A stretch of DNA of 30,035 bases from a virus, in IMG/VR virus record IMGVR_UViG_3300032267_000079, positions 1-30,035 of that record. One strand, 5' to 3'. Of this stretch, positions 854 to 27,077 are shown in pieces. The notes beneath the pieces were generated by a model, which saw only the letters and a list, made by a program, of their open reading frames with translations, had not been told where the DNA came from and searched no databases. Every line of letters begins with the position of its first letter. Position 1 is the stretch's first letter. Both the position numbers and the translations under genes were made by a program.

Positions 854-2407
854 ATGAAACCATATAGTTATAGTGAGTTCAACAATAGGTTTAATATGTT
901 TGGTTGGTTACATCCTGACATACGACAAACCTATTGGACTAAAGAAGATAATCAATGGGACTATCAAGAACAGGCAACTGTTCGTAAGACCTTTACATTA
1001 TCTACACTTTGGTACAAAGATACAAGAGTATTACAATTCTATACCAATGACGAAGGCAATGGCAGCAGACGATTAAGTGTATATAATTTCTATCGTGAAG
1101 CTGCTCATGAAACAGACCTTGTAACAAGTGCAAGTTATAGAATCAATGCATCAACTGTTATTGATGCGTTGTATTACAAAGCTAATGCACCTGTGTTCTA
1201 TAATCAAAATGGTACATTAAAGAAAGGGTTCTGGGGTGCTTTGCGTAGACGACTACGCTCACAAGCTATGCGTACTAGTTGGGTAACTAACCTTATGTTA
1301 CAAGAAGCAGTAAGAATAGCAGAGTCAACTACAAGTGACATAACTATTCAAGACTATCTTGTTGATAAAGACATACCAACTTATGCATACTATCAAGATG
1401 AGTTAACAACTGAATATCATGTTGATGGTAATCAACGACGCATACGACTTGGTTCTACTAGTTGGACTGAAATACATAAGTCTACTGATCCAAGGTTATA
1501 TGGGTATACATTCAATGAACGACATGACATATGGCTCAAGCCTGAGCAATTCTTTCATGGTGGTGAGATATATAATCGTAATGAAGTAGATATTGCTACA
1601 TGTTCTTCATGTGGTAATGAATCTGTTACGGAACTTATGATTGATGGTGTGTGTCATCATTGTCTTGATGCCACATTTAAAATACATAACTATTCAACAC
1701 GAGTAGAAAGTATGCTCAAGTTCAAAGCTACTAGGGTTAGACCTAATACTGTTTACCTTGGCTGTGAATTAGAATACGAAACTAACAATCGTAATCGTGC
1801 ACAACTTGCAGTAGGTAAACTAATGCATGGTCATGCACTTATGAAGTCTGATGGTTCTATTCGTAACGGCTTTGAAATTGTTACATGTCCAGCTACATTA
1901 GATATACATCTAGATATCTTTAAGAAATTCTATGACAACATACCACCTGATCTTAAGATAGAAAAGAATGTAGGTATGCATGTTCACATCAGTCGGAAAC
2001 CCTTGTCGCAGTTGACTCTTGGCAAGATGACTGAGTTTCTTAATCGTCCAGAAAATAAACTATTCATTGCATTTATAGCAGGTCGTACAGATAATCAATA
2101 TGCTCGTATGGATAGTGGACGCAATGTTACATATGCATGGCGTAACAAGAATGGTGGTGACAGATACAATGCACTCAATCTAAACAATCAGAACACAGTA
2201 GAAGTTAGGTTGTTTGCTACACCAATGAACTACAAAGAGTTTGCATCTCGCTTACAATTTGTACAAGCATTAGTTGACTATTGTATGCCTGCTCAGTCTA
2301 ATGAATCCCTCAAGAAACAAACTCATTACGAAGCATTCATGGGTTGGTTATCTAATCGTAAGCGTATGTTCCCCGAACTTAGTTATCATTTAAAGGAGTT
2401 TGTATAA
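854..2407 (+). CDS. Amidoligase family protein (GS fold) with zinc ribbon
   Basis: A 517-residue protein whose C-terminal half matches the Amidoligase_2 family, a glutamine-synthetase-fold COOH-NH2 ligase predicted to form amide or peptide bonds with ATP. Visible motifs in order: a zinc ribbon with Cys250, Cys253, Cys267 and Cys270; YLGCELEYE (301-309), which supplies acidic metal ligands; KSDGSI (331-336) and FEIVTCP (340-346); GMHVHISR (374-381); and RYNALNL...EVRLF (437-454). The first 240 residues are not recognised and look like a lineage-specific region. The next gene starts on its stop codon (TAATG), and a GATase and an ATP-grasp ligase follow, so the three probably form one biosynthetic or modification pathway. 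The substrate is unknown. The family call is strong; the chemistry is inferred from the family. Confidence 0.8.
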   Translation: MKPYSYSEFNNRFNMFGWLHPDIRQTYWTKEDNQWDYQEQATVRKTFTLSTLWYKDTRVLQFYTNDEGNGSRRLSVYNFYREAAHETDLVTSASYRINASTVIDALYYKANAPVFYNQNGTLKKGFWGALRRRLRSQAMRTSWVTNLMLQEAVRIAESTTSDITIQDYLVDKDIPTYAYYQDELTTEYHVDGNQRRIRLGSTSWTEIHKSTDPRLYGYTFNERHDIWLKPEQFFHGGEIYNRNEVDIATCSSCGNESVTELMIDGVCHHCLDATFKIHNYSTRVESMLKFKATRVRPNTVYLGCELEYETNNRNRAQLAVGKLMHGHALMKSDGSIRNGFEIVTCPATLDIHLDIFKKFYDNIPPDLKIEKNVGMHVHISRKPLSQLTLGKMTEFLNRPENKLFIAFIAGRTDNQYARMDSGRNVTYAWRNKNGGDRYNALNLNNQNTVEVRLFATPMNYKEFASRLQFVQALVDYCMPAQSNESLKKQTHYEAFMGWLSNRKRMFPELSYHLKEFV

Positions 2408-3324
2408 TGTGTATTGCAATCTATAAACCAGAAGAAAAGATTATCAGTAAAGCAACATTACAAGAATGTTATTCATCTAACCCAGATGGTGCAGGCTTTA
2501 TGTTTGCTGATAACAAACAATTAAATATTGAGAAAGGTTTCTTTAGCTTTGATTCCTTTTACAATGCATACAAGAAACATCAAGATAAAAAAGTTGTTAT
2601 TCATTTTAGGATTAAAACTCATGGTGAAATTAATAAAACAAACTGTCACCCATTCGCTGTCAATAGCAGTCTGGCTTTTGTGCACAACGGTATTATTAAT
2701 GGGCTTGATGGTGATAAGACTTTGTCTGACACTATCCACTTCAATGAACAAATACTTCAACCGTTAGTAAACAAATGGGGTAACTTAGCTTTATTCCAAG
2801 ATCCTATGATTAACCTTCTTGAAACTCGTATTGGTTATAGCAAGCTTATCTTCTTAGATAGACATGGTAACCATAAGATTATGAATGAACACAAGGGTGA
2901 ATGGGATGATGGCATATGGTATAGTAACAACAGTTACAAACCTTATGTCCCACCAGTTACAACATCATGGCTTAATGATACATACAACTATGGCAACTGG
3001 CGTAAACCTGTAGCTATTACTAAACCTAAACCTAAAGTAGTAGCAATAGGTGCAATGGTAGAATTACTAGAAGATGTAGCAGATCCTGGTACTCTTACAG
3101 TGTATGAGACTGGTGAACTATGTGAGATAGTTGCAGTTAATAAAGACTTTACATGTGATCTAATGCATGATGGTTACAATGGTAAAAGTTCTTTTCTTTA
3201 TAATGTTCCTTATCATTCTTTATCTTTTATAGATGAGTTTGAAGATGACTCTATTGATCCAGTAGGTATCCCTGCATATCAACAATATGCATCACCATCT
3301 TTATTGAAAGGTAAATCTAAATGA
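2407..3324 (+). CDS. Class II glutamine amidotransferase
   Basis: A 305-residue protein with an Ntn-hydrolase glutaminase domain (GATase type 2). After removal of Met1, Cys2 (MCIAIYKP) becomes the N-terminal nucleophile that releases ammonia from glutamine. Family motifs are HFRIKTHG (66-73), NCHPF (79-83), FVHNGIING (91-99) and SDT (107-109). The region after about residue 195 is not recognised. It lacks the synthetase domain found in large amidotransferases, so it presumably passes ammonia to a partner, and the flanking amidoligase and ATP-grasp genes are the obvious candidates. Its start overlaps the amidoligase stop by one base, and its stop overlaps the next start as ATGA. The glutaminase domain is confident; the acceptor is inferred. 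Confidence 0.8.
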   Translation: MCIAIYKPEEKIISKATLQECYSSNPDGAGFMFADNKQLNIEKGFFSFDSFYNAYKKHQDKKVVIHFRIKTHGEINKTNCHPFAVNSSLAFVHNGIINGLDGDKTLSDTIHFNEQILQPLVNKWGNLALFQDPMINLLETRIGYSKLIFLDRHGNHKIMNEHKGEWDDGIWYSNNSYKPYVPPVTTSWLNDTYNYGNWRKPVAITKPKPKVVAIGAMVELLEDVADPGTLTVYETGELCEIVAVNKDFTCDLMHDGYNGKSSFLYNVPYHSLSFIDEFEDDSIDPVGIPAYQQYASPSLLKGKSK

Positions 3325-4070
3325 GTCTTAAGATATTTCCTTACAAGTTAGGTAGTGTGTCTGCTAAACGATTGGCTAGAACCCTTGGTACTCTAAGGGT
3401 TTCACCATCGTATAATGCTAGACGCAAAGATGTAATAGTTAACTGGGGTAACTCTGCACCACCACACTTTAGGTGGATGGAGCAAGACTTAAACAATCCG
3501 CATGCCATCTCATTAGCTAGTAACAAACTTAATACATTCTTAGAGTTTCGTAACAAATCTTTTACTGATGTACCAGACTGGACTACTAACCCTAACGAAG
3601 CTCAACACTGGCTTGACTTAGGGCTTAAAGTATATTGTCGTACAACAACTAGAGGACACAGTGGTAATGGTATAGTTATATGTAGTGATGGTGATAGACT
3701 TGCGTATGCACCACTATATACATTACATAGTAAACATAAGCACGAGTATCGTGTCCATGTATTCCGTGGACAAGTACTCGATGTTCAAATGAAGCGTAAG
3801 CGTAATGGTGCCGGGGGCGGCACAGGTATTCGTAACCATGCAAATGGATGGGTGTATGCACGGGCAGAAATCGCCCCGTCCGAAGAACTACTATCATCAG
3901 CCTGCAAGGCTGTGAAATTATTAGGGTTAGATTTTGGTGCGGTGGACATCGGACACAGAGTCATTGATAATAAATTCTTTGTATTCGAAGTTAATACTGC
4001 CCCAGGATTAGAAGGAACAACGCTTGACAAGTATTCAAAAGCCATTTATAATTACTATAGGAGTCTATAA
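3321..4070 (+). CDS. ATP-grasp ligase (RimK-like)
   Basis: A 249-residue protein with an ATP-grasp fold of the RimK/COOH-NH2 ligase type, which activates a carboxylate as an acyl-phosphate and joins it to an amine. Recognisable elements are HEYRVHVFRGQVLDVQMKRK (141-160), the glycine-rich NGAGGGTG (162-169), DFGAVDIG (204-211), and FEVNTAPGLEGTT (222-234), where Glu223 and Asn225 are in the usual Mg-ATP binding position. Its ATG overlaps the GATase stop by four bases, showing tight coupling in the amidoligase-GATase-ligase triad. Comparable phage triads have been predicted to modify peptides, cell wall or proteins; nothing here identifies the substrate. Confidence 0.78.
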   Translation: MSLKIFPYKLGSVSAKRLARTLGTLRVSPSYNARRKDVIVNWGNSAPPHFRWMEQDLNNPHAISLASNKLNTFLEFRNKSFTDVPDWTTNPNEAQHWLDLGLKVYCRTTTRGHSGNGIVICSDGDRLAYAPLYTLHSKHKHEYRVHVFRGQVLDVQMKRKRNGAGGGTGIRNHANGWVYARAEIAPSEELLSSACKAVKLLGLDFGAVDIGHRVIDNKFFVFEVNTAPGLEGTTLDKYSKAIYNYYRSL

Positions 4071-5072: not shown

Positions 5073-5765
5073 ATGAGTAAATTTATCGGTCATATACCTT
5101 GTCCAAGTTGTGGTAGCAAAGATAACTTGGCAGAATATGACGATCATTTGTTTTGTTTTGGATGTAAATATTGGAAGTCTAAGAACACAATCGAAGGAGT
5201 TCGCAGAAGATTGCTGACAATCGACGAAGAATGTCCCAATGATTTAAACTTAGATTTAGTACTTGACATTCCTAAAGAAGCAATGCAATGGCTTTTACAA
5301 TATGAAATAACAAGTAAAGATTGTGAGACTTATCACATTACTTGGTGTCCGTCAAGGAAAGCTTTAGTACTTGTGTACCTACCACACTATTACCAAGCTA
5401 GAAACTTTAACGAAGGACCTAAGTACTTGTCTAAAGGAAACAAACCCTTGCTATTCTATGGTAACAGTGATACAATAGTTATAGTAGAAGACGTTTTATC
5501 TGCCATAAAAGTTAGTAAAAGTAACAATAGTTACACAGGGTGTCCTCTACTAGGTTCAAGTATGCCTCTAAAACTTACAGAAACCATCCTAGAACGCTTT
5601 AAAAAGGTTTGGGTATGGTTGGATAGGGATAAAGCAATTGATGCCGTTAAAATGGCTAGAAATTTAAAACAGAAGGGTATTGATGCTGATGTTATTATTA
5701 CAGATAAAGATCCTAAAGAGTATAGCACACACGATATAGACTTGATTATAAAGGATAAACAATGA
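5073..5765 (+). CDS. DNA primase (T7 gp4 N-terminal type)
   Basis: A 230-residue primase that makes RNA primers for lagging-strand synthesis. A zinc-binding domain uses Cys10, Cys13, Cys28 and Cys31 (PCPSCG...FCFGC), as in T7 gp4 and related primases that read template trinucleotides. A TOPRIM domain follows, with VIVEDVLSAIKV (Glu139), VWVWLDRDKA (Asp184/Asp186) and TDKDPKEYS (Asp211/Asp213) as metal-binding residues. In T7 the primase is fused to the helicase; here it ends after TOPRIM and the helicase is a separate gene. ATG 5073 has AAGGA six bases upstream. Confidence 0.87.
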   Translation: MSKFIGHIPCPSCGSKDNLAEYDDHLFCFGCKYWKSKNTIEGVRRRLLTIDEECPNDLNLDLVLDIPKEAMQWLLQYEITSKDCETYHITWCPSRKALVLVYLPHYYQARNFNEGPKYLSKGNKPLLFYGNSDTIVIVEDVLSAIKVSKSNNSYTGCPLLGSSMPLKLTETILERFKKVWVWLDRDKAIDAVKMARNLKQKGIDADVIITDKDPKEYSTHDIDLIIKDKQ

Positions 5766-5992
5766 AACAACCTGACGCTTGGCTGTATGAAGAGTATGAT
5801 ACTACTGGAGCACTCCGTGCTAAATACCTTTGGTCATTCCTTCCTGCAGATTTACAACAGATTACCAGACTCAAAGACGTGCATCACTTTGTGCTCACGC
5901 CTTTGTATCTGGATGTGAATGAAAGAAAAGTTTACAATAAAGAAAATAAATACAACAGTAAGAAATTAACAGAAGCTTTTTGTGGTCTGTAG
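5762..5992 (+). CDS. Hypothetical protein between primase and helicase
   Basis: A 76-residue protein (MKQPDAWLYEEYDTTGALRA...), with ATG overlapping the primase stop (ATGA) and AAAGGA upstream. Aromatic-rich and without a recognised family. Its position between the two halves of a replicative primase-helicase suggests it is cotranscribed with them; a linker or adaptor role is possible but not shown. Confidence 0.68.
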   Translation: MKQPDAWLYEEYDTTGALRAKYLWSFLPADLQQITRLKDVHHFVLTPLYLDVNERKVYNKENKYNSKKLTEAFCGL

Positions 5993-6003
5993 AAAGGAGT
6001 TAC

Positions 6004-7245
6004 ATGGTAGAGAAACAAATCATTAAATTGTTTTGTGAAGACGTAAATCTCTTTACAAAGTATTACAAGTATGTTAACATTAATTATATAAAGATTAATT
6101 ATAATGATATATATAAATTATTTAATATAGTATCATTATACTATAGTAAATATAATACTAGTACTACTATTACTAATAATGAATTAGAGATATTCTATAA
6201 TAGTAATTACTTATTACGTGATCAAGAAAGAAAAGAACTTAGTGTTCTTTTAGAAGACATCTTTAATCAAGATACTACTAACAAGGGTATCATTGTCTCA
6301 TTACTAGAAGAACATCGTAGACGCTCACTAGCAGGACAAGTAGCTATGATGGCATTAGATGTAGAAGGGGGTAAGAAATCTACTGAAGATCTTCTTAATT
6401 TATTTAATGAGTTTGAACATCAAGAGGTTGAGTCTGATGACATTAAACCTGTTGATATGGATTTGGAAAACTTATATGACACACAGATTTCAACTCCTGG
6501 TTTACGCTGGCGTCTTGATTGGCTTAATAAGTCTCTTGGATCTTTGCGTAAAGGTGATTTTGGTTTTATCTTTGCTCGCCCCGAGACAGGCAAGACTACG
6601 TTTCTTGCGAGTGAAATTACGCACATGGTGGGTCAAACTACTGGTGATGTACTATGGTTTAATAATGAAGAACAAGGAAAGAAAGTTGGCATTAGAGTAT
6701 ACCAAGCAGCCCTTGGATTACCATTAAGTGAGTTGTTTAAAGACAAAGTTATGAGTAAAATACAATACAATGAACTAACAGGTAATCGTATTCATATCTT
6801 AGACTTTGAAGATTCAAGTAGCAAAGCAAGAATAGAAGCAGTACTTAAACAATATAACCCAGCTCTTATTATCTTTGACCAGATAGATAAGATCCGTGGT
6901 TTTAAAGGAGAAAGAAATGATCTTGAACTTAAGCAGATTTATCAATGGGCTAGAGAGATTGCTAAAACATACGCACCTGTCATCGCTGTATCGCAAGCAT
7001 CAGGCGAAGCGGAAGGCAAGCTATTTCTAACAATGGATCAAGTCGACGGCTCCAAAACGGCTAAGCAGGGCGAAGCCGATTGGATCCTAGGGATAGGTAA
7101 AGAACAAGATAACCTTAGTCGTAGTAGATATTTTAATATCTGCAAGAATAAACTAGTAGGTGACACTGACACCTTACCTGATCTAAGACATGGTTCTAAA
7201 CAAGTATTAATTAAAGCAGACATTGCAAGATACATTGACATTTAA
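6004..7245 (+). CDS. Replicative DNA helicase, DnaB/T7 gp4 C-terminal type
   Basis: A 413-residue helicase of the DnaB superfamily that unwinds DNA at the fork. The ATG at 6004 follows AAAGGAG (5993-5999) at a normal distance; an upstream in-frame ATG at 5980 lacks such a site and was not used. The N-terminal domain (1-140) is Asn/Ile/Tyr-rich and encoded by an extremely AT-rich stretch. The RecA-like domain (about 165-413) shows Walker A ARPETGKTTF (191-200), WFNNEEQGKKV (218-228) with the catalytic Glu, Walker B ALIIFDQID (287-295), and a C-terminal CKNKLVGDTDTLPDLRHG segment resembling the DNA-binding/arginine-finger region of T7 gp4. It follows the primase, of which it is the physically separate partner. 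Confidence 0.88.
   Translation: MVEKQIIKLFCEDVNLFTKYYKYVNINYIKINYNDIYKLFNIVSLYYSKYNTSTTITNNELEIFYNSNYLLRDQERKELSVLLEDIFNQDTTNKGIIVSLLEEHRRRSLAGQVAMMALDVEGGKKSTEDLLNLFNEFEHQEVESDDIKPVDMDLENLYDTQISTPGLRWRLDWLNKSLGSLRKGDFGFIFARPETGKTTFLASEITHMVGQTTGDVLWFNNEEQGKKVGIRVYQAALGLPLSELFKDKVMSKIQYNELTGNRIHILDFEDSSSKARIEAVLKQYNPALIIFDQIDKIRGFKGERNDLELKQIYQWAREIAKTYAPVIAVSQASGEAEGKLFLTMDQVDGSKTAKQGEADWILGIGKEQDNLSRSRYFNICKNKLVGDTDTLPDLRHGSKQVLIKADIARYIDI
6061..6190. other. Extremely AT-rich tract inside the helicase gene
   Basis: About 130 bases are nearly all A and T (for example 6081-6130), encoding Asn, Ile, Tyr and Lys in the helicase N-terminal domain. The bias is far stronger than in the flanking coding sequence. 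It may be a DNA-unwinding element near a replication origin, or simply a low-constraint protein segment. No clustered DnaA-type or iteron repeats were recognised. Confidence 0.4.
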
Positions 7246-7263
7246 ATTAAAGGAGTATCTATT

Positions 7264-7422
7264 TTGAATAATGATTTTACAGAAGTTTTAAAAGCTAGAC
7301 CTGACTTGAACAGAGCAGACATTTATGATATAATAGATCTAATGGGTCCTAATGAAACCCTTCTTGAAGCAGTAAATAAATACTACCCACTCAACCAAGG
7401 AACTGGCGATTGCGCAGCTTAA
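7264..7422 (+). CDS. Small hypothetical protein, TTG start
   Basis: A 52-residue protein read from TTG 7264, with AAAGGAG (7249-7255) eight bases upstream and no ATG at a suitable place. It begins MNNDFTEVLKARPDLNRADI and looks helical and acidic, like a small helix bundle. It fills the gap between helicase and polymerase and overlaps the polymerase start by 13 bases, consistent with translational coupling. No family recognised. Confidence 0.6.
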   Translation: MNNDFTEVLKARPDLNRADIYDIIDLMGPNETLLEAVNKYYPLNQGTGDCAA

Positions 7423-8579
7423 TCTTAGATGTTGAAACAACCATAAGCAACAAGGGCAATCCATTTGATGAAAGGAATAAACTTTGTTATGTTGGACTCT
7501 ATAGTACTGATGGCACTTATTTATACGACATTGATTATAGCGGAAGTCCTAACAGAGAAAGACTTGACGCTATACAAAGAAGCATCGACAGCCACGATAC
7601 TCTTGTTGGCTTTAACATTAAGTTTGACTTGCATTGGTTAAGACGCTATGGAATTAATTTTATGGATAAGCGTATTTGGGATTGTCAGTTGGCTCATTTT
7701 ATACTTACGGGCCAACAATATCCCTATCCAAGTCTCAATGGTGTTGCTGACTACTATGCTTTGGGTAGTAAACTTGATATCATTGCTACTGATTATTGGA
7801 AGAATGGGATAGATACTGACAAGATACCTAAAGACTTGTTAGAAGAATACCTCACACAAGATTTGCAGTTAACGCAAAAAGTGTATGAGAAACAGATGGA
7901 AGAATTTGCAGTTGGCACAAAACAAATGCAAAGACTTCTTAGCTTACATAACCAAGACTTATTAATATTAGAGGAGATGGAATACAATGGTCTTAAATTT
8001 AATGAAACAGAGTGTGTTAGGCTTGGGGAAGAAACTACAAAAGATATTGAACGTATTGATTCAATCCTTTATACTTATCATAAGCTTCCTGAGTTTAATG
8101 CTAATAGCACTGAACATATTAGTGCTCTTCTCTATGGGGGATCTATTAAAGTCAGACGTCAAGAAGTTATTGGTACTTTTAAAACAGGGACTAGAGCGGG
8201 CTTACCTAAAAGCCAATGGAAAGAATACGTCATAGAGTTTGAACGTTTGGCTAATCCTCTTAAAGGTTCTGAACTAGAAAAAGAAGGTTACTTCTCTAAT
8301 GATGAACAGACATTACGATCATTAAAAGGTAGTAAACAAGCTAAAGAATTAATAGAACTTATCTTAGCTAGGGCTACATTAGAGAAACGATTATCTGCAT
8401 ACTATGAAGGATTGGTAGTACTACGCAAGACTATGAACTGGAAAGAAGGTACACTACACGGTGTTCTTAATCAATGTGTTGCTAAGACAGGAAGACTATC
8501 GTCTACTAAACCTAACTTACAGAACTTTGATGGAGAAATTAAACAACTATTTGGGAGTAGGTATGCTGTTACAAGCTGA
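7410..8579 (+). CDS. Family A DNA polymerase, N-terminal part (3'-5' exonuclease and start of polymerase domain)
   Basis: A 389-residue protein holding the proofreading exonuclease and thumb/early palm of a T7-like family A polymerase. ExoI is LILDVETT (Asp7, Glu9), ExoII GFNIKFDLHW (Asn69, Asp73) and ExoIII EEYLTQDLQL (Tyr147, Asp151). Near the C-terminus, KTGRLSSTKPNLQNF matches the conserved TGR/PNLQN segment just before motif A. The ORF then stops at TGA 8577-8579, and motif A lies in the +1 frame in the next ORF. The start is TTG 7410 with AAGGAA eight bases upstream; no ATG is available before ExoI. This is either a true two-subunit polymerase, a +1 frameshift, or an indel. Confidence 0.85.
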   Translation: MRSLILDVETTISNKGNPFDERNKLCYVGLYSTDGTYLYDIDYSGSPNRERLDAIQRSIDSHDTLVGFNIKFDLHWLRRYGINFMDKRIWDCQLAHFILTGQQYPYPSLNGVADYYALGSKLDIIATDYWKNGIDTDKIPKDLLEEYLTQDLQLTQKVYEKQMEEFAVGTKQMQRLLSLHNQDLLILEEMEYNGLKFNETECVRLGEETTKDIERIDSILYTYHKLPEFNANSTEHISALLYGGSIKVRRQEVIGTFKTGTRAGLPKSQWKEYVIEFERLANPLKGSELEKEGYFSNDEQTLRSLKGSKQAKELIELILARATLEKRLSAYYEGLVVLRKTMNWKEGTLHGVLNQCVAKTGRLSSTKPNLQNFDGEIKQLFGSRYAVTS

Positions 8580-15558: not shown

Positions 15559-15584
15559 GGGGAGTGCAACGCTCCCCTTTTTTT
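15559..15584 (+). terminator. Intrinsic terminator of the rightward block
   Basis: GGGGAG (15559-15564) pairs with CTCCCC (15572-15577), extended by T-G and G-C inside to leave a CAA loop, and is followed by seven T (15578-15584). It is oriented for plus-strand transcription. The T-run overlaps the stop codon of the first leftward gene, so convergent transcripts meet here. Confidence 0.85.
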
Positions 15585-15975
15585 ATTCTATTATAAGTTC
15601 TATAGTCTTTTCTAATTCCATCTTATCAAACAATGGATCAAAAGCAATCTTAGAATTACCAATAAAATCTTTCCCTGCCCACGTAGTACCCAATAGTATA
15701 CACCCTTCAGTGTCCGCACTAGAGTTTCCTGTGTGGATACGCACACCCTCAAATCCAGGGACATTTAATACATGAGGTAGTCTGCGCTTAAAACGATTAG
15801 AAACATCAATAATGACAGAATAAGTGCCAGTAGGAATAGCTGTTTGTCCATTTATCTTTTCCCCTTTAGGTCTAACTGTGTCTTCTAAAGTGTAACAATA
15901 AAACGTACCATTAACATATAGTTTACCTACAGTGTAAGTTTTAGCAAATTCAAATCTTTTAATTGATAATCTCAT
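15583..15975 (-). CDS. DUF5675 family protein, probable lysis or tail peptidase
   Basis: A 130-residue protein of the DUF5675 type. Visible signature: YTLEDTVRP, then IPTGTYSVIID, LPHVLNVPGFEGVRIHTGNSSADTEGC in two conserved blocks (residues 66-92) with His77 and Cys92, and ILLG. The HxGN...TxGC arrangement recalls L,D-transpeptidase/endopeptidase active sites, and family members are often linked to phage lysis. It is the last gene of the leftward block, directly after a tail gene. The role is inferred from context and motif likeness. Confidence 0.7.
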   Translation of the reverse strand: MRLSIKRFEFAKTYTVGKLYVNGTFYCYTLEDTVRPKGEKINGQTAIPTGTYSVIIDVSNRFKRRLPHVLNVPGFEGVRIHTGNSSADTEGCILLGTTWAGKDFIGNSKIAFDPLFDKMELEKTIELIIE

Positions 15976-23308: not shown

Positions 23309-24004
23309 TTAAATAGGTAGTTTAGAGTAGTCTACAACATAACCAGTATTAGTCATATGTACTACATGTTTATATTCAGGCATCTCAAGAAGATCTTGAG
23401 CCATAACACCAACTGATTTAATATAAGACCAGATATAATTAAAACTATATATTTTAATACCATTAATAGTATTAATATGTTTAATATTAGTTTTAAGATT
23501 TTTATCAGACGAATTAAATAAACCACCAGGAGCTAATAGAGCACCTCCAATTGTACCAAGCATACCAGGTATTTGGCTTGCTCCTTGGGAAGACGACTGA
23601 GTTGAGTTTGCTACCAAACCAGCACCAGAAGCTGATACAAGATTAGCAACTTGTTTTTGAAGGTAATCACCAGCATATTGATTTTGGAAGTTATTAATAG
23701 CTAAGTTTTCATAACCATTGGGACCTACCCCAGTAGAAGCAAACCTTCTTTGAAGGCCCTCTTGACCCATTTCACTACCTAGCATAAATCCTGGTTGACT
23801 TTTAATATAATCAAGAGACGGACCTCCTCCTAAGAGTAAGTTACTTAGGGCTTCTTCATAAGGAGCTCTTGCTCCCACACCAAAAAAGTCTACAGGTGTA
23901 GAAGTAGAAGTAGAAGAACCACCCCCACCTTTACCACCACCATAGAAAGTAAAAGACTCTACGAGAGTAGTTACCCAATTAAATAAGTTAAACATCTTGT
24001 ACAT
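23309..24004 (-). CDS. Small ejection/virion protein with C-terminal S74 chaperone domain
   Basis: A 231-residue protein. N-terminal Gly/Ser-rich stretch (22-36), central helical Gln/Ala/Gly region (45-160) like T7 gp14 or P22 gp7 ejection proteins, then a Peptidase_S74 intramolecular chaperone from about residue 163: SSDKNLKTNI with likely nucleophile Ser166 and Lys171, followed by GIKIYSFNY and VGVMAQDL. S74 domains normally trimerise fibres or spikes and cleave themselves off; about 65 residues would be released. GGAG lies before ATG 24004. Being in the ejection gene series rather than a fibre gene is notable. Confidence 0.75.
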   Translation of the reverse strand: MYKMFNLFNWVTTLVESFTFYGGGKGGGGSSTSTSTPVDFFGVGARAPYEEALSNLLLGGGPSLDYIKSQPGFMLGSEMGQEGLQRRFASTGVGPNGYENLAINNFQNQYAGDYLQKQVANLVSASGAGLVANSTQSSSQGASQIPGMLGTIGGALLAPGGLFNSSDKNLKTNIKHINTINGIKIYSFNYIWSYIKSVGVMAQDLLEMPEYKHVVHMTNTGYVVDYSKLPI

Positions 24005-24426: not shown

Positions 24427-26079
24427 CTATTCTTGTTTTAAATCCAATCTACCATTAATATTAAATTCTACTTTTTCTAAACGGAAAGGGTTATTTCCTG
24501 TATAAAGATACTCATAAGCTCTACGTCTAAATCTACCAAGTTGATATAAACAAGGTTTCTGTAAGTTTAATTGTACTTGTCTATACTGAGACCAATTAGT
24601 ATAATCATCTTCAGTATGTCTAACTTGCATTACATCATTAATGTTATCACCAAACATGGTTAAACCATACCCAGTTTTAAAAGCATAAGTATCAAAATCC
24701 ATACGATCAGTTACAATACGCATTCTAATAGGTCCAAAAGGATCTACATAGTTATTAGGACTTAAGGTAAACACTAAACCATTAACAGCATCTAATACAT
24801 AGAAGTTACCACTATTAAATGGAAACTGTACTACAAAAGAACATTCAAAGTAGTTTTCACCACCACCAATATAGTCTTTACTTGTAGTCCAATAGTGCCA
24901 TTCTTTTTCATTTATATCAAATACAAGTGTAACATTTTGATCTGTTAGTACAAGTCCATATAAAGTATGTCCTGCAATTTTATATAACCAAGAGTATGTA
25001 CCTGATAAATCACTAGCGTTTAGAAAGTTCTCAACTGCTTTAGTTGATACTTTTATAGGAGATAGTCCATCTAACATAAAAATACCTCTACCACCTTCAA
25101 CTACAGTTCCCATCCAAATTAAAGTTTGTTCTGGATTTTGTATTGAGTTACCATCAGCACAACCTATTTCCATATGAGCTGATTGGTTAATACTTAATAC
25201 TGACCCTGCGGCATTACCAGCATCATAGAAAAAATCAGCTGTCCACTCTTTAAAAGCTATAACATAGTTAAGATGTCTAGCAAGTGCTTTACCTTTGTCT
25301 GCTTCTGATACTGCTGAAGTGTAGTTTAAAGGTCCCCATATATTTGGGTTTTCATTATCAGATTGAAATATCTGACCTTTAGAGTCCATAGCAAATACAT
25401 AACCATCAAGGTATACTAAACCTGGGACAGGGTTTGTAGGAAATGAATTTAAATAAGGAGTAACTACTGCACCACTACCAGCACCTGAAAGTACAACAGC
25501 TAATGTTCCAGCATAATTAGATCCATTAGAAGTTAAAGTTACACTTGTTATTGTAGATCCATCAGAAATATAAGTACCAGCTGCACCAGAGCCACTAATA
25601 GATCCTGTAACTGTAAAGGTACCTGTAGTAGATGTATACCCAGTACCACCGCTAACTAAAGTAACTCCTGCTACTTGTTTATTTATTACAACAACAATTC
25701 CTGAGGAATTCATTGAGTACCCTGTTACTTGGTCATGAAAGACCATATAAGGACGGGGTGCTGTTGTAGCTAGAGTATTAACCCAACTAACGTTTTGCCC
25801 ACTCATACCTGTAAGTAATTGAGTTGAAGTACCTCCAGTAATACTATATAAATATGTACCAGCTGCTGCATATAAATTATTATTATAAGTCCAAAGGCCA
25901 TTACCATCAATGGGTAGTGCAGGAGTAATTGTATATGCAGCTTTACCTGGACGTTTAATAGCTAAAGTAGCCCCACCTGGCATAGTTTCTTTAAAACAAT
26001 TAACCATCTTAGCATCTTTGCTAGTATCATTGGTACGTTGTTTTATAGGTGTTGTTAACGGGACATTAACAATAGGCAT
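24427..26079 (-). CDS. Tail hub / packaged-DNA stabilisation protein (P22 gp10-like)
   Basis: A 550-residue protein resembling P22 gp10, the hexameric tail hub below the portal/gp4 ring. Similar segments include the start (variable) MVNCFKE...RPGKAAYTI, GLVYLDGYVFAMDSKGQIFQS (220-240), FKEWTADFFYDAG, and WMGTVVEGGRGIFMLDG then PIKVSTKAVENFL. An extra beta-rich domain at about 136-208 (VSGGTGYT, GSGAAGTYISDGSTITSVTL) interrupts the N-terminal part and has a sister in the adjacent gp4-like protein. It starts on the stop base of that gene. Confidence 0.75.
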   Translation of the reverse strand: MPIVNVPLTTPIKQRTNDTSKDAKMVNCFKETMPGGATLAIKRPGKAAYTITPALPIDGNGLWTYNNNLYAAAGTYLYSITGGTSTQLLTGMSGQNVSWVNTLATTAPRPYMVFHDQVTGYSMNSSGIVVVINKQVAGVTLVSGGTGYTSTTGTFTVTGSISGSGAAGTYISDGSTITSVTLTSNGSNYAGTLAVVLSGAGSGAVVTPYLNSFPTNPVPGLVYLDGYVFAMDSKGQIFQSDNENPNIWGPLNYTSAVSEADKGKALARHLNYVIAFKEWTADFFYDAGNAAGSVLSINQSAHMEIGCADGNSIQNPEQTLIWMGTVVEGGRGIFMLDGLSPIKVSTKAVENFLNASDLSGTYSWLYKIAGHTLYGLVLTDQNVTLVFDINEKEWHYWTTSKDYIGGGENYFECSFVVQFPFNSGNFYVLDAVNGLVFTLSPNNYVDPFGPIRMRIVTDRMDFDTYAFKTGYGLTMFGDNINDVMQVRHTEDDYTNWSQYRQVQLNLQKPCLYQLGRFRRRAYEYLYTGNNPFRLEKVEFNINGRLDLKQE

Positions 26080-27077
26080 TAACGGAAACTCCTATTAAAG
26101 CCTGATCTTACATCTGGTTGGAAGAATGTAGAAGTCCATTCAATATCCCAATCCATTAATTCATTCTTAAGAACATTTGCTTTTTGTTCGTAGTACTGTT
26201 TATCAGTTAGAGTCTTTTCATAATCTGATGCAAGCTCTGCAACTAGACCCCATTTGAGAGCTAAAAACCACTCTGAAGGGAAATCAAAGTTCTGGTTAGC
26301 TGATGTAATGTCTTCAATAGGTGTCTGTACAAATAAATGTAAATCATAGTTTGTAGCAGTAAAAGTATTAGGAGTTAAGAATACACTTAGTTCTCCATAG
26401 TCTCTCCAAGGTTTATAGTAAACAGTGTTTACGTTACCTTGTGATTGTTTAGCACCCAAGATATTATACTCTTGTTGTGAGATAATAGTCATTGGCATAT
26501 CTGTAAATACACTTAAAAGTGAATCTACTGTAACTGTACAGGGTGTAGTAAAAGTACCACCTTGCATTGTTAATACATCACCTACAGCATAACCACTACC
26601 ACCAGTGTTAGCAAGCATTACACTTGTAACAGTAGGACCAGTAAATGTTAAGTTAAATGTAGCACCAGAACCTGTACCTCCAGTAGAAGATACAGCATTA
26701 GTTGGTTGTACTGTATAACCTGTACCACCAGATGTTAAAGAGATTTTACCTACTGAGTATGTAGCATTAGATAAGTTTCTTAAATAACATTGAATAAGTC
26801 TTAAAGGTTTAGCAGCATTATAATTATAAGATGCTGAAGGTCCAATAGTATAAGAAGTTTGATTAGGAACTAAAGGTAGTGTATACTCCTTAATAGTCCA
26901 TAGTTTAATACCCTCTGACTGCCATTTCTTTAAAATAAGATTTAAAGAGAAAGAAGCATTCTCTAAAGCATTAGGCCCAGGTGTAGCACCTTCTTCTAGT
27001 ACTGCTAAACTACGTAGAGCAGCCTCAATAATCTGATCTCTGGTAACGGTAAATGTAGTAGTACCTGAAGTAGCCAT
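26079..27077 (-). CDS. Head-tail adaptor protein (P22 gp4-like)
   Basis: A 332-residue protein. The N-terminal TRDQIIEAALRSLAVLEEGATPGPNALENA and LILKKWQSEGIKLWTIKEYTL resemble P22 gp4 and related head-completion adaptors that bind the portal. FPSEWFLALKWGLVAELASDY (about 275-295) is the second helical block. An insertion at about 109-185 is Gly/Thr/Ser-rich beta sequence (SLTSGGTGYT, GTGSGATFNLTF, GGSGYAVGDVLTM), making the protein twice the size of P22 gp4. The following gp10-like gene has a similar insertion. Confidence 0.75.
   Translation of the reverse strand: MATSGTTTFTVTRDQIIEAALRSLAVLEEGATPGPNALENASFSLNLILKKWQSEGIKLWTIKEYTLPLVPNQTSYTIGPSASYNYNAAKPLRLIQCYLRNLSNATYSVGKISLTSGGTGYTVQPTNAVSSTGGTGSGATFNLTFTGPTVTSVMLANTGGSGYAVGDVLTMQGGTFTTPCTVTVDSLLSVFTDMPMTIISQQEYNILGAKQSQGNVNTVYYKPWRDYGELSVFLTPNTFTATNYDLHLFVQTPIEDITSANQNFDFPSEWFLALKWGLVAELASDYEKTLTDKQYYEQKANVLKNELMDWDIEWTSTFFQPDVRSGFNRSFR

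Follow-up and report, generated by a model that had tools for sequence, protein, structure and literature searches.

The window analysed here, a 30,035-base record of a short-tailed phage (IMGVR_UViG_3300032267_000079), encodes on its minus strand a tail hub and a head-tail adaptor, two neighbouring ring proteins that each carry an additional beta module of ca. 80 residues. The two modules were shown, by sequence comparison and from predicted structures, to be of one kind, with the signature GG-x-GY ... G-x-GA ... VTSVxL ... GY and six strands in two halves. The best explanation, to which we assign a probability of roughly two in three, is that they are exchangeable surface modules, recruited separately from a pool circulating among tailed phages and making accessory contacts. 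They are neither a recent local duplication nor an obligatory interlock, and the module is spread over more ring proteins than the original prediction, a first reading of the window from its letters alone, had seen. Exchanged beta modules on phage structural proteins are an already known kind of element; no family name was found for this one.

One kind of beta module in hub and adaptor

The hub gene (24427-26079, minus strand) encodes a nozzle protein of 550 residues and the adaptor gene (26079-27077, minus strand) a protein of 332 residues. The adaptor gene directly precedes the hub gene, base 26079 being common to its stop codon and to the hub start. The hub belongs to PHROG 578 (head closure Hc3, E 1e-38), and its AlphaFold model (predicted local distance difference test, pLDDT, 87.2) matches P22 gp10 (8eap; Z 34.8, root mean square deviation, rmsd, 2.8, 438 of 471 residues aligned) and the hub of cyanophage Pan3 (9vyg; Z 35.2), so that sequence profile and fold both point to a P22-type (Hc3) hub. 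For the adaptor, the best family is phrog_12985 (E 3e-29), which has no stated function, followed by a weak match to phrog_637 (adaptor Ad3, E 0.0068). Its model (pLDDT 79.5; predicted template modelling score, pTM, 0.58) finds P22 gp4 as top structural match (9pgg; Z 13.9, rmsd 3.3, only 114 residues aligned), and fold and gene order fit a P22-type adaptor. PHROG and structural matches therefore bear out the names, gp10-like hub and gp4-like adaptor, that had been given to the two proteins. The phrog_460 (Hc2) matches at ~222-300 are matches of the module and give no evidence of an Hc2 identity for the window proteins.

The hub module occupies residues 133-211 (25447-25683, minus strand) and consists of two related three-stranded halves; the adaptor module occupies residues ~106-189 (26511-26762, minus strand). 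These limits lie within a few residues of those first proposed, and all the motifs quoted at that time were located in both proteins: SGGTGYT at hub residues 143-149 and adaptor residues 116-122, GSGA at 163-166 and again 201-204 in the hub and at 136-139 in the adaptor, TITSVTL at 176-182 in the hub and TVTSVML at 149-155 in the adaptor. The two segments share 30 identities over 69 aligned positions; a local match gives 40% identity over 75 residues and 40.4 bits. Their Smith-Waterman score of 97 compares with a shuffled mean of 52 (standard deviation 8) and was reached by none of 5,000 composition-preserving shuffles, likewise by none when the roles of the two modules were exchanged, and a single profile-profile comparison with hhalign gave a probability of 95.9% and E 5e-9 over 55 columns. 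The likeness is carried by the first halves (33 of 5,000 shuffles as high).

Predicted strands agree with this alignment. In the AlphaFold models six strands occur in the same order and in two groups of three, at 136-143, 152-159, 162-172, 177-190, 193-197 and 205-210 in the hub and at 108-116, 129-132, 140-146, 149-155, 168-171 and 181-188 in the adaptor. Strand states taken from the whole-protein models agree at 47 of the 69 aligned positions, and none of 68 circular shifts was as good. The proposal that both proteins carry the same type of module is thus sustained by shuffles, profiles and strand order alike. The halves of the hub module also resemble each other (5 of 5,000 shuffles as high), which supports an internal repeat; the corresponding test on the adaptor module was not significant (399 of 5,000). 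A search of the window for a third copy with both module profiles returned, among the matches listed at the HMMER inclusion threshold, none but the two known ones.

An optional adaptor module and a variable hub slot

The adaptor module is an optional insertion of 84 residues in the beta domain (~60-253) of the protein. It is present in 17 of 30 aligned adaptors and missing from 13, with a clean gap in near relatives (e.g. LRNLS-VSPNIDMPMT at locus L030). The natural adaptor without it has ~248 residues. The L030 adaptor lacks the module yet is 84% identical to that of the window in its core, as does that of L047 (77%), whereas the adaptors of L080-L082 have it though their cores are only 53-60% identical. 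It had been proposed to look for relatives without one or both modules, and such relatives were found, e.g. the L030 adaptor and the L106 hub. Both modules are insertions relative to P22, as first suggested: on the adaptor side gp4 aligns over 114 residues only, and on the hub side the 471 residues of gp10 equal, by chain length, the 550 of the window hub minus 79. A tree built from 243 columns of the adaptor core demands three or more changes of module state, forced by well-supported branches, and none of 500 label shuffles was as low; gains and losses are not distinguishable on this core tree.

The module was also replaced in one close relative, L005, as shown by comparison of silent positions. 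The adaptor cores of L005 and the window are 92% identical and agree at 54 of 65 fourfold third bases, whereas their modules agree at only 11 of 31 (p 6e-6 versus core). Among 136 adaptor pairs five pass the Bonferroni threshold and, since all five involve L005, they amount in effect to a single replacement event.

The association of the two modules was assessed in hub-adaptor pairs, of which there were 62 distinct ones when identical copies were collapsed and near-copies retained; 16 of these were cut by a contig end and dropped. In the 46 complete pairs, with states called by module profiles, both modules are present in 26 and neither in 3, while the hub module stands alone in 16 (including L109, by the adaptor-type profile) and the adaptor module, by profile, in one (L082, where the hub motif pieces are split by inserts). 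The 16 hub-only pairs make an obligatory partnership unlikely and disfavour the idea that the modules interlock in the neck by necessity. A docking of the modules that would lock adaptor to hub is nevertheless suggested by the proximity of the two proteins in the tail and by the proposal that additional beta domains of sheath proteins cement phage tails (PMC9230969). Apart from the hub-only pairs, the comparison with solved tails argues against it, since the early-blade slot of the hub and the beta domain of the adaptor would be at different levels, placing the two module sites in different parts of the tail; docking is consequently regarded as very improbable.

The same counts bear on the possibility that the modules are near-neutral passengers, loop inserts spread by recombination without a function of their own. 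This would be in line with an adaptor module that is optional and was replaced. Against it, the hub module occurs in 42 of the 46 pairs, the GG-x-GY core is invariant in six aligned hub modules, and 35 columns of the adaptor module are invariant across an alignment of nine sequences that includes one identical pair; passengers are therefore an unlikely explanation.

In the hub model, the module is predicted with a pLDDT of 89-95 (by blocks of ten) and is preceded by four-stranded groups at 59-90 and 98-131 and followed by one at 222-255. By an eye count of complete four-stranded groups (propeller blades), it stands after the second and before the third, an insertion between early blades that corresponds, in the predicted model, to the position of SU10- and T7-type nozzle domains. 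In the hubs of Pan3 and Pam1, the alignment to the hub profile starts at "sfPtnpvpGlvYlDgy" (~residue 212), directly past the module. P22 gp10, of which the structure shows 471 residues, is aligned for 438-443 of them with the 550-residue hub. The hub of L106, of 473 residues, has no module and matches PHROG 578 over residues 3-470. Hubs thus range from 473 residues without a module (L106) through ~550 with one to ~690-754 with further inserts; in the latter, by eye, a stretch of ~145 residues interrupts the module end or other inserts split the module. In the L082 hub (1515-3587) an insert in the slot gives a CBM_5_12 (carbohydrate-binding module, CBM) match below the Pfam cut-off (E 0.0058), and the L109 hub (5729-7582), which is far from that of the window, carries a module of the adaptor type ahead of its Hc3 match. 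This variety of inserts indicates that the hub position is a slot accepting different inserts.

Several further features of this slot were noted. The nested insertion of ~145 residues at the end of the GG-x-GY module is rich in Gly, Ser and Thr, is found in L027 (5001-7085), L032, L034, L037, L039, L044 and other hubs of ~690 residues, and shows the motifs ..SGTGV..GT.I..QLT.. and ..GTYTVS.SQTV.ST.I... Inserts with W...Y..N.LYTVT that resemble, by eye, the CBM5/12-like one of L082 occur in the hubs of L030, L081 and L084, and these CBM5/12-like inserts stand nested among GG-x-GY units. The halves of the L109 module, also by eye, seem reversed in order.

Relatives of the module in other phage proteins

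Uncultured viral contigs were scanned with the module profiles (at least 599 pattern matches per scan), and at least 178 relatives were confirmed with the adaptor profile (the best 80 of 178 being used) and at least 20 with the hub profile. At least 76 ORFs (open reading frames) at 73 loci, none of them identified as a hub or an adaptor, exceed against the adaptor module the 40.4 bits that it shares with the hub module, and at least 61 of them are left once their module segments are clustered at 90% identity (best listed, 65.1 bits). For the hub module, at least 22 ORFs at 22 loci do so, 22 after collapsing (best listed, 60.8 bits). Since these loci were picked for resembling the modules, with two phage records added, the figures attest the existence of closer kin and not its rate.

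That each module has closer kin elsewhere counts against a local duplication, i.e. the copying of one module into the other gene, in either direction, in the ancestry of this phage, followed by divergence. Such an event is what the adjacency of the two genes, their common motifs and the match of 40% identity over 75 residues (40.4 bits) would suggest at first sight. At the DNA level, however, the two modules are no more similar than codon use predicts (165 of 1,000 codon shuffles as high), so that any common ancestor must be old, and the module is present in the distant adaptors of L080-L082 and missing from the nearer ones of L030 and L047. Local duplication is largely refuted on these grounds, and it is the least probable of the explanations considered. 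Related sequence in adjacent genes had originally been ascribed to duplication or shared acquisition; the former half of that proposal largely falls, while recruitment from a common pool fits the data.

The proteins that carry the module were identified by scanning 30 hand-picked module-bearing ORFs against PHROGs (10 at E <=1e-3, 20 at E <=1e-8). For 16 of them a whole-protein identity beyond the module was obtained, the other 14 having module-only, partial or no matches. The identified proteins are tail sheaths (L202, L214, L143, L147, L210), a sheath stabiliser (L207), a head-tail adaptor Ad2 (L113, 3734-4801, E 5e-42), a head closure Hc2 (L209, 2221-3633, E 4e-139), baseplate wedges (L198, L201), a tail fibre (L144), structural proteins without stated role (L211, L146, L184, L182) and a member of a family of unknown function (L165). 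The L113 protein, from the unannotated record of Marine virus AG-345-P14 (Kyanoviridae), has a module 47% identical to the adaptor module of the window; Ad2 presumably corresponds to T4 gp13. Pfam was run on seven of these ORFs and bore out the assignment above cut-off for five, namely the T4 neck protein (L209), the T4 gp15 sheath stabiliser (L207), sheath domains (L214, L202) and T4 gp8 (L198); a T4 gp6 domain in L201 was below cut-off and nothing relevant was found in L113. The same kind of module is thereby shown, through sequence matches, in unrelated neck, sheath and baseplate proteins, and these matches place the window modules in a wider GG-x-GY pool. A further reading makes this one module a general-purpose decoration cassette. 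It would have been inserted repeatedly, at defined slots, into ring proteins of neck and tail in unrelated phages, namely the adaptor and hub of P22-type phages, the adaptor and neck protein of T4-type ones, and the sheath, its stabiliser and the baseplate wedge; in P22-type hubs it would act as a minimal nozzle domain at first cell contact. The chances of this reading as a whole are evenly balanced in our judgement.

The first 112 loci contained no further module-bearing ORF at E <0.01. Among 84,980 cellular species genomes queried with the adaptor module, 128 pattern matches included 12 relatives. Tblastn against an annotated phage collection returned a single record for the adaptor module, none for the hub module and, for a multi-unit stretch of L084, two that belong to the same phage; the low-complexity filter of BLAST may hide more. 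Relatives of the module were also seen in contigs filed as bacterial genomes (L215-L226, e.g. Prochlorococcus, Neorhodopirellula, Bacteroidetes). In L209 the GG-x-GY module stands after the neck domain, and a sub-threshold Pfam match to GBS104-like_Ig (E 0.0011) occurs further on, at 383-466.

Sequence searches for a family name were negative: Pfam gave no lectin, CBM, immunoglobulin (Ig) or other family for the window modules up to E 1 and no family above cut-off covering the module in eight other module-bearing sequences, NCBIfam gave no match for eight sequences up to E 0.01, and PDB sequences, queried with each protein and with profiles of the modules, contained no significant match to the modules. 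The hub profile matched the Pan3, Pam1 and Sf6 hubs in the PDB through the core only, and the adaptor profile matched nothing up to E 1. A BFVD search with the whole adaptor, in which the module was not separated, returned mostly unnamed proteins of uncultured phages. No published description of the module was found, as judged by titles and the openings of abstracts.

Position on the particle and possible function

P22 gp10, Sf6 gp8 and the Pan3 and Pam1 hubs share the whole-chain fold of the hub core with the window hub (Z 32.3-35.2), while a counterpart of the module is missing from the P22 and Sf6 hubs (~79 residues shorter) and from those of Pan3 and Pam1 (~105 shorter). In SU10 gp17, a seven-bladed propeller, beta domains are inserted between blades 2 and 3 (PMC9509320), although these are four Ig-like domains that rearrange into the nozzle and not one module of ~79 residues. 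In T7 gp12, a loop of blade 3 (T7 numbering) leads to the nozzle tip, which is directed at the outer membrane (PMC6702177); this early-blade insert at the distal end resembles the situation in the window hub, whereas the tip itself is a larger beta-barrel with a helix, and no sequence relation to the hub module was found. The hub module thus probably lies, according to the model and these analogies, where other podophages have a distal domain that is missing in P22.

For the adaptor, the order of elements is that of T7-type adaptors (T7 gp11, P-SCSP1u gp22), with a helix bundle, an embracing helix and a beta domain (PMC10575957), the latter standing between the helices in the window protein and differing by its additional module of 84 residues. 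This order, together with high-rmsd structural matches, suggests that the beta domain is probably equivalent to the T7-type fibre dock.

The favoured explanation can be formulated as follows. A widespread phage beta module, with no family name found, would have entered hub and adaptor separately from a pool circulating among tailed phages, in each of these conserved ring proteins at a slot on the surface. In the hub, the slot of SU10-type nozzle domains would bring six copies near the distal tail mouth; in the adaptor, extension of the fibre-dock-like beta domain would give twelve copies ringing the head-tail junction. The modules would be exposed and apart from each other, that of the adaptor dispensable for assembly, and both are probably on the outside of the particle. 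Least certain is the last step, in which the modules would make weak accessory contacts, either to fibres or to the envelope of the host, that recombination may tune, with assembly kept constant by the ring cores. Optional presence, replacement, reuse of a slot and spread over virion ring proteins all fit accessory surface modules. A comparable behaviour is found in the Ig-like and carbohydrate-binding domains of phage structural proteins, which are optional and swapped (PMC10684548, PMC9230969) but from which the GG-x-GY module differs in that Pfam, NCBIfam and PDB sequences yielded no match to it; additional Ig-like sheath domains have been suggested to aid adhesion or stability (PMC9230969) and neck passage structures are listed among proteins diversified by domain shuffling (PMC10684548).

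A more specific reading, already put forward in the original prediction, is that of Ig-like decorations facing outward and binding host surface sugars, an idea published for Ig-like sheath domains (PMC9230969). It draws on the weak CBM5/12 match in the L082 hub slot and its lookalikes, and on matches to phrog_9703 ("head decoration") by the adaptor module of the window (E 0.01) and by the module of the L109 hub (E 1.7e-11). The window modules themselves have no lectin, CBM or Ig match in Pfam or NCBIfam within the limits given above, the CBM_5_12 match being confined to L082, and sugar binding appears possible but doubtful.

Several points weigh against recruited, exchangeable surface modules as formulated here. 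The second halves of the two modules are weakly alike (356 of 5,000 shuffles as high), the strand comparison follows the sequence alignment, with strands read from the whole-protein models, and the adaptor model has a pTM of 0.58. The evidence of replacement amounts to a single event, that of L005; between this relative and the window, the hub has no synonymous excess specific to its module (26/47 before, 19/36 within and 75/97 after it). A recent transfer of the adaptor module between far lineages, sought as a module more alike than its core at fourfold sites, was significant in none of the 12 pairs in which module and core differ most in this respect (smallest p 0.16). The blade count was made by eye, the fibre-dock matches have a high rmsd (GP4, 204 residues aligned at 5.5 Å; A4, 197 at 7.1 Å; T7 gp11, 117 at 4.3 Å), and the matches confined to the adaptor beta domain are baseplate proteins with Z <8. 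Finally, outward exposure and a binding function are what we infer.

Were the modules indeed recruited in this way, hubs and adaptors, usually seen as conserved plumbing, would have swappable surface slots. One module outside Pfam and NCBIfam families connects proteins of neck, sheath and baseplate in phages that are unrelated. Giving it a name would guard against misleading transfer of annotations through module-only matches such as "head closure Hc2" or "baseplate wedge", and offers a direct test of whether neck decorations are involved in host contact.

Elsewhere in the window, a protein of 231 residues in the tail gene cluster (23309-24004, minus strand) has a Peptidase_S74 match (chaperone of endosialidase, E 1.8e-6) at its C-terminus. 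At the end of the structural cluster a gene for a DUF5675 protein (15583-15975, minus strand, E 4.7e-35) adjoins that of a 148-residue protein with tail-fibre matches.

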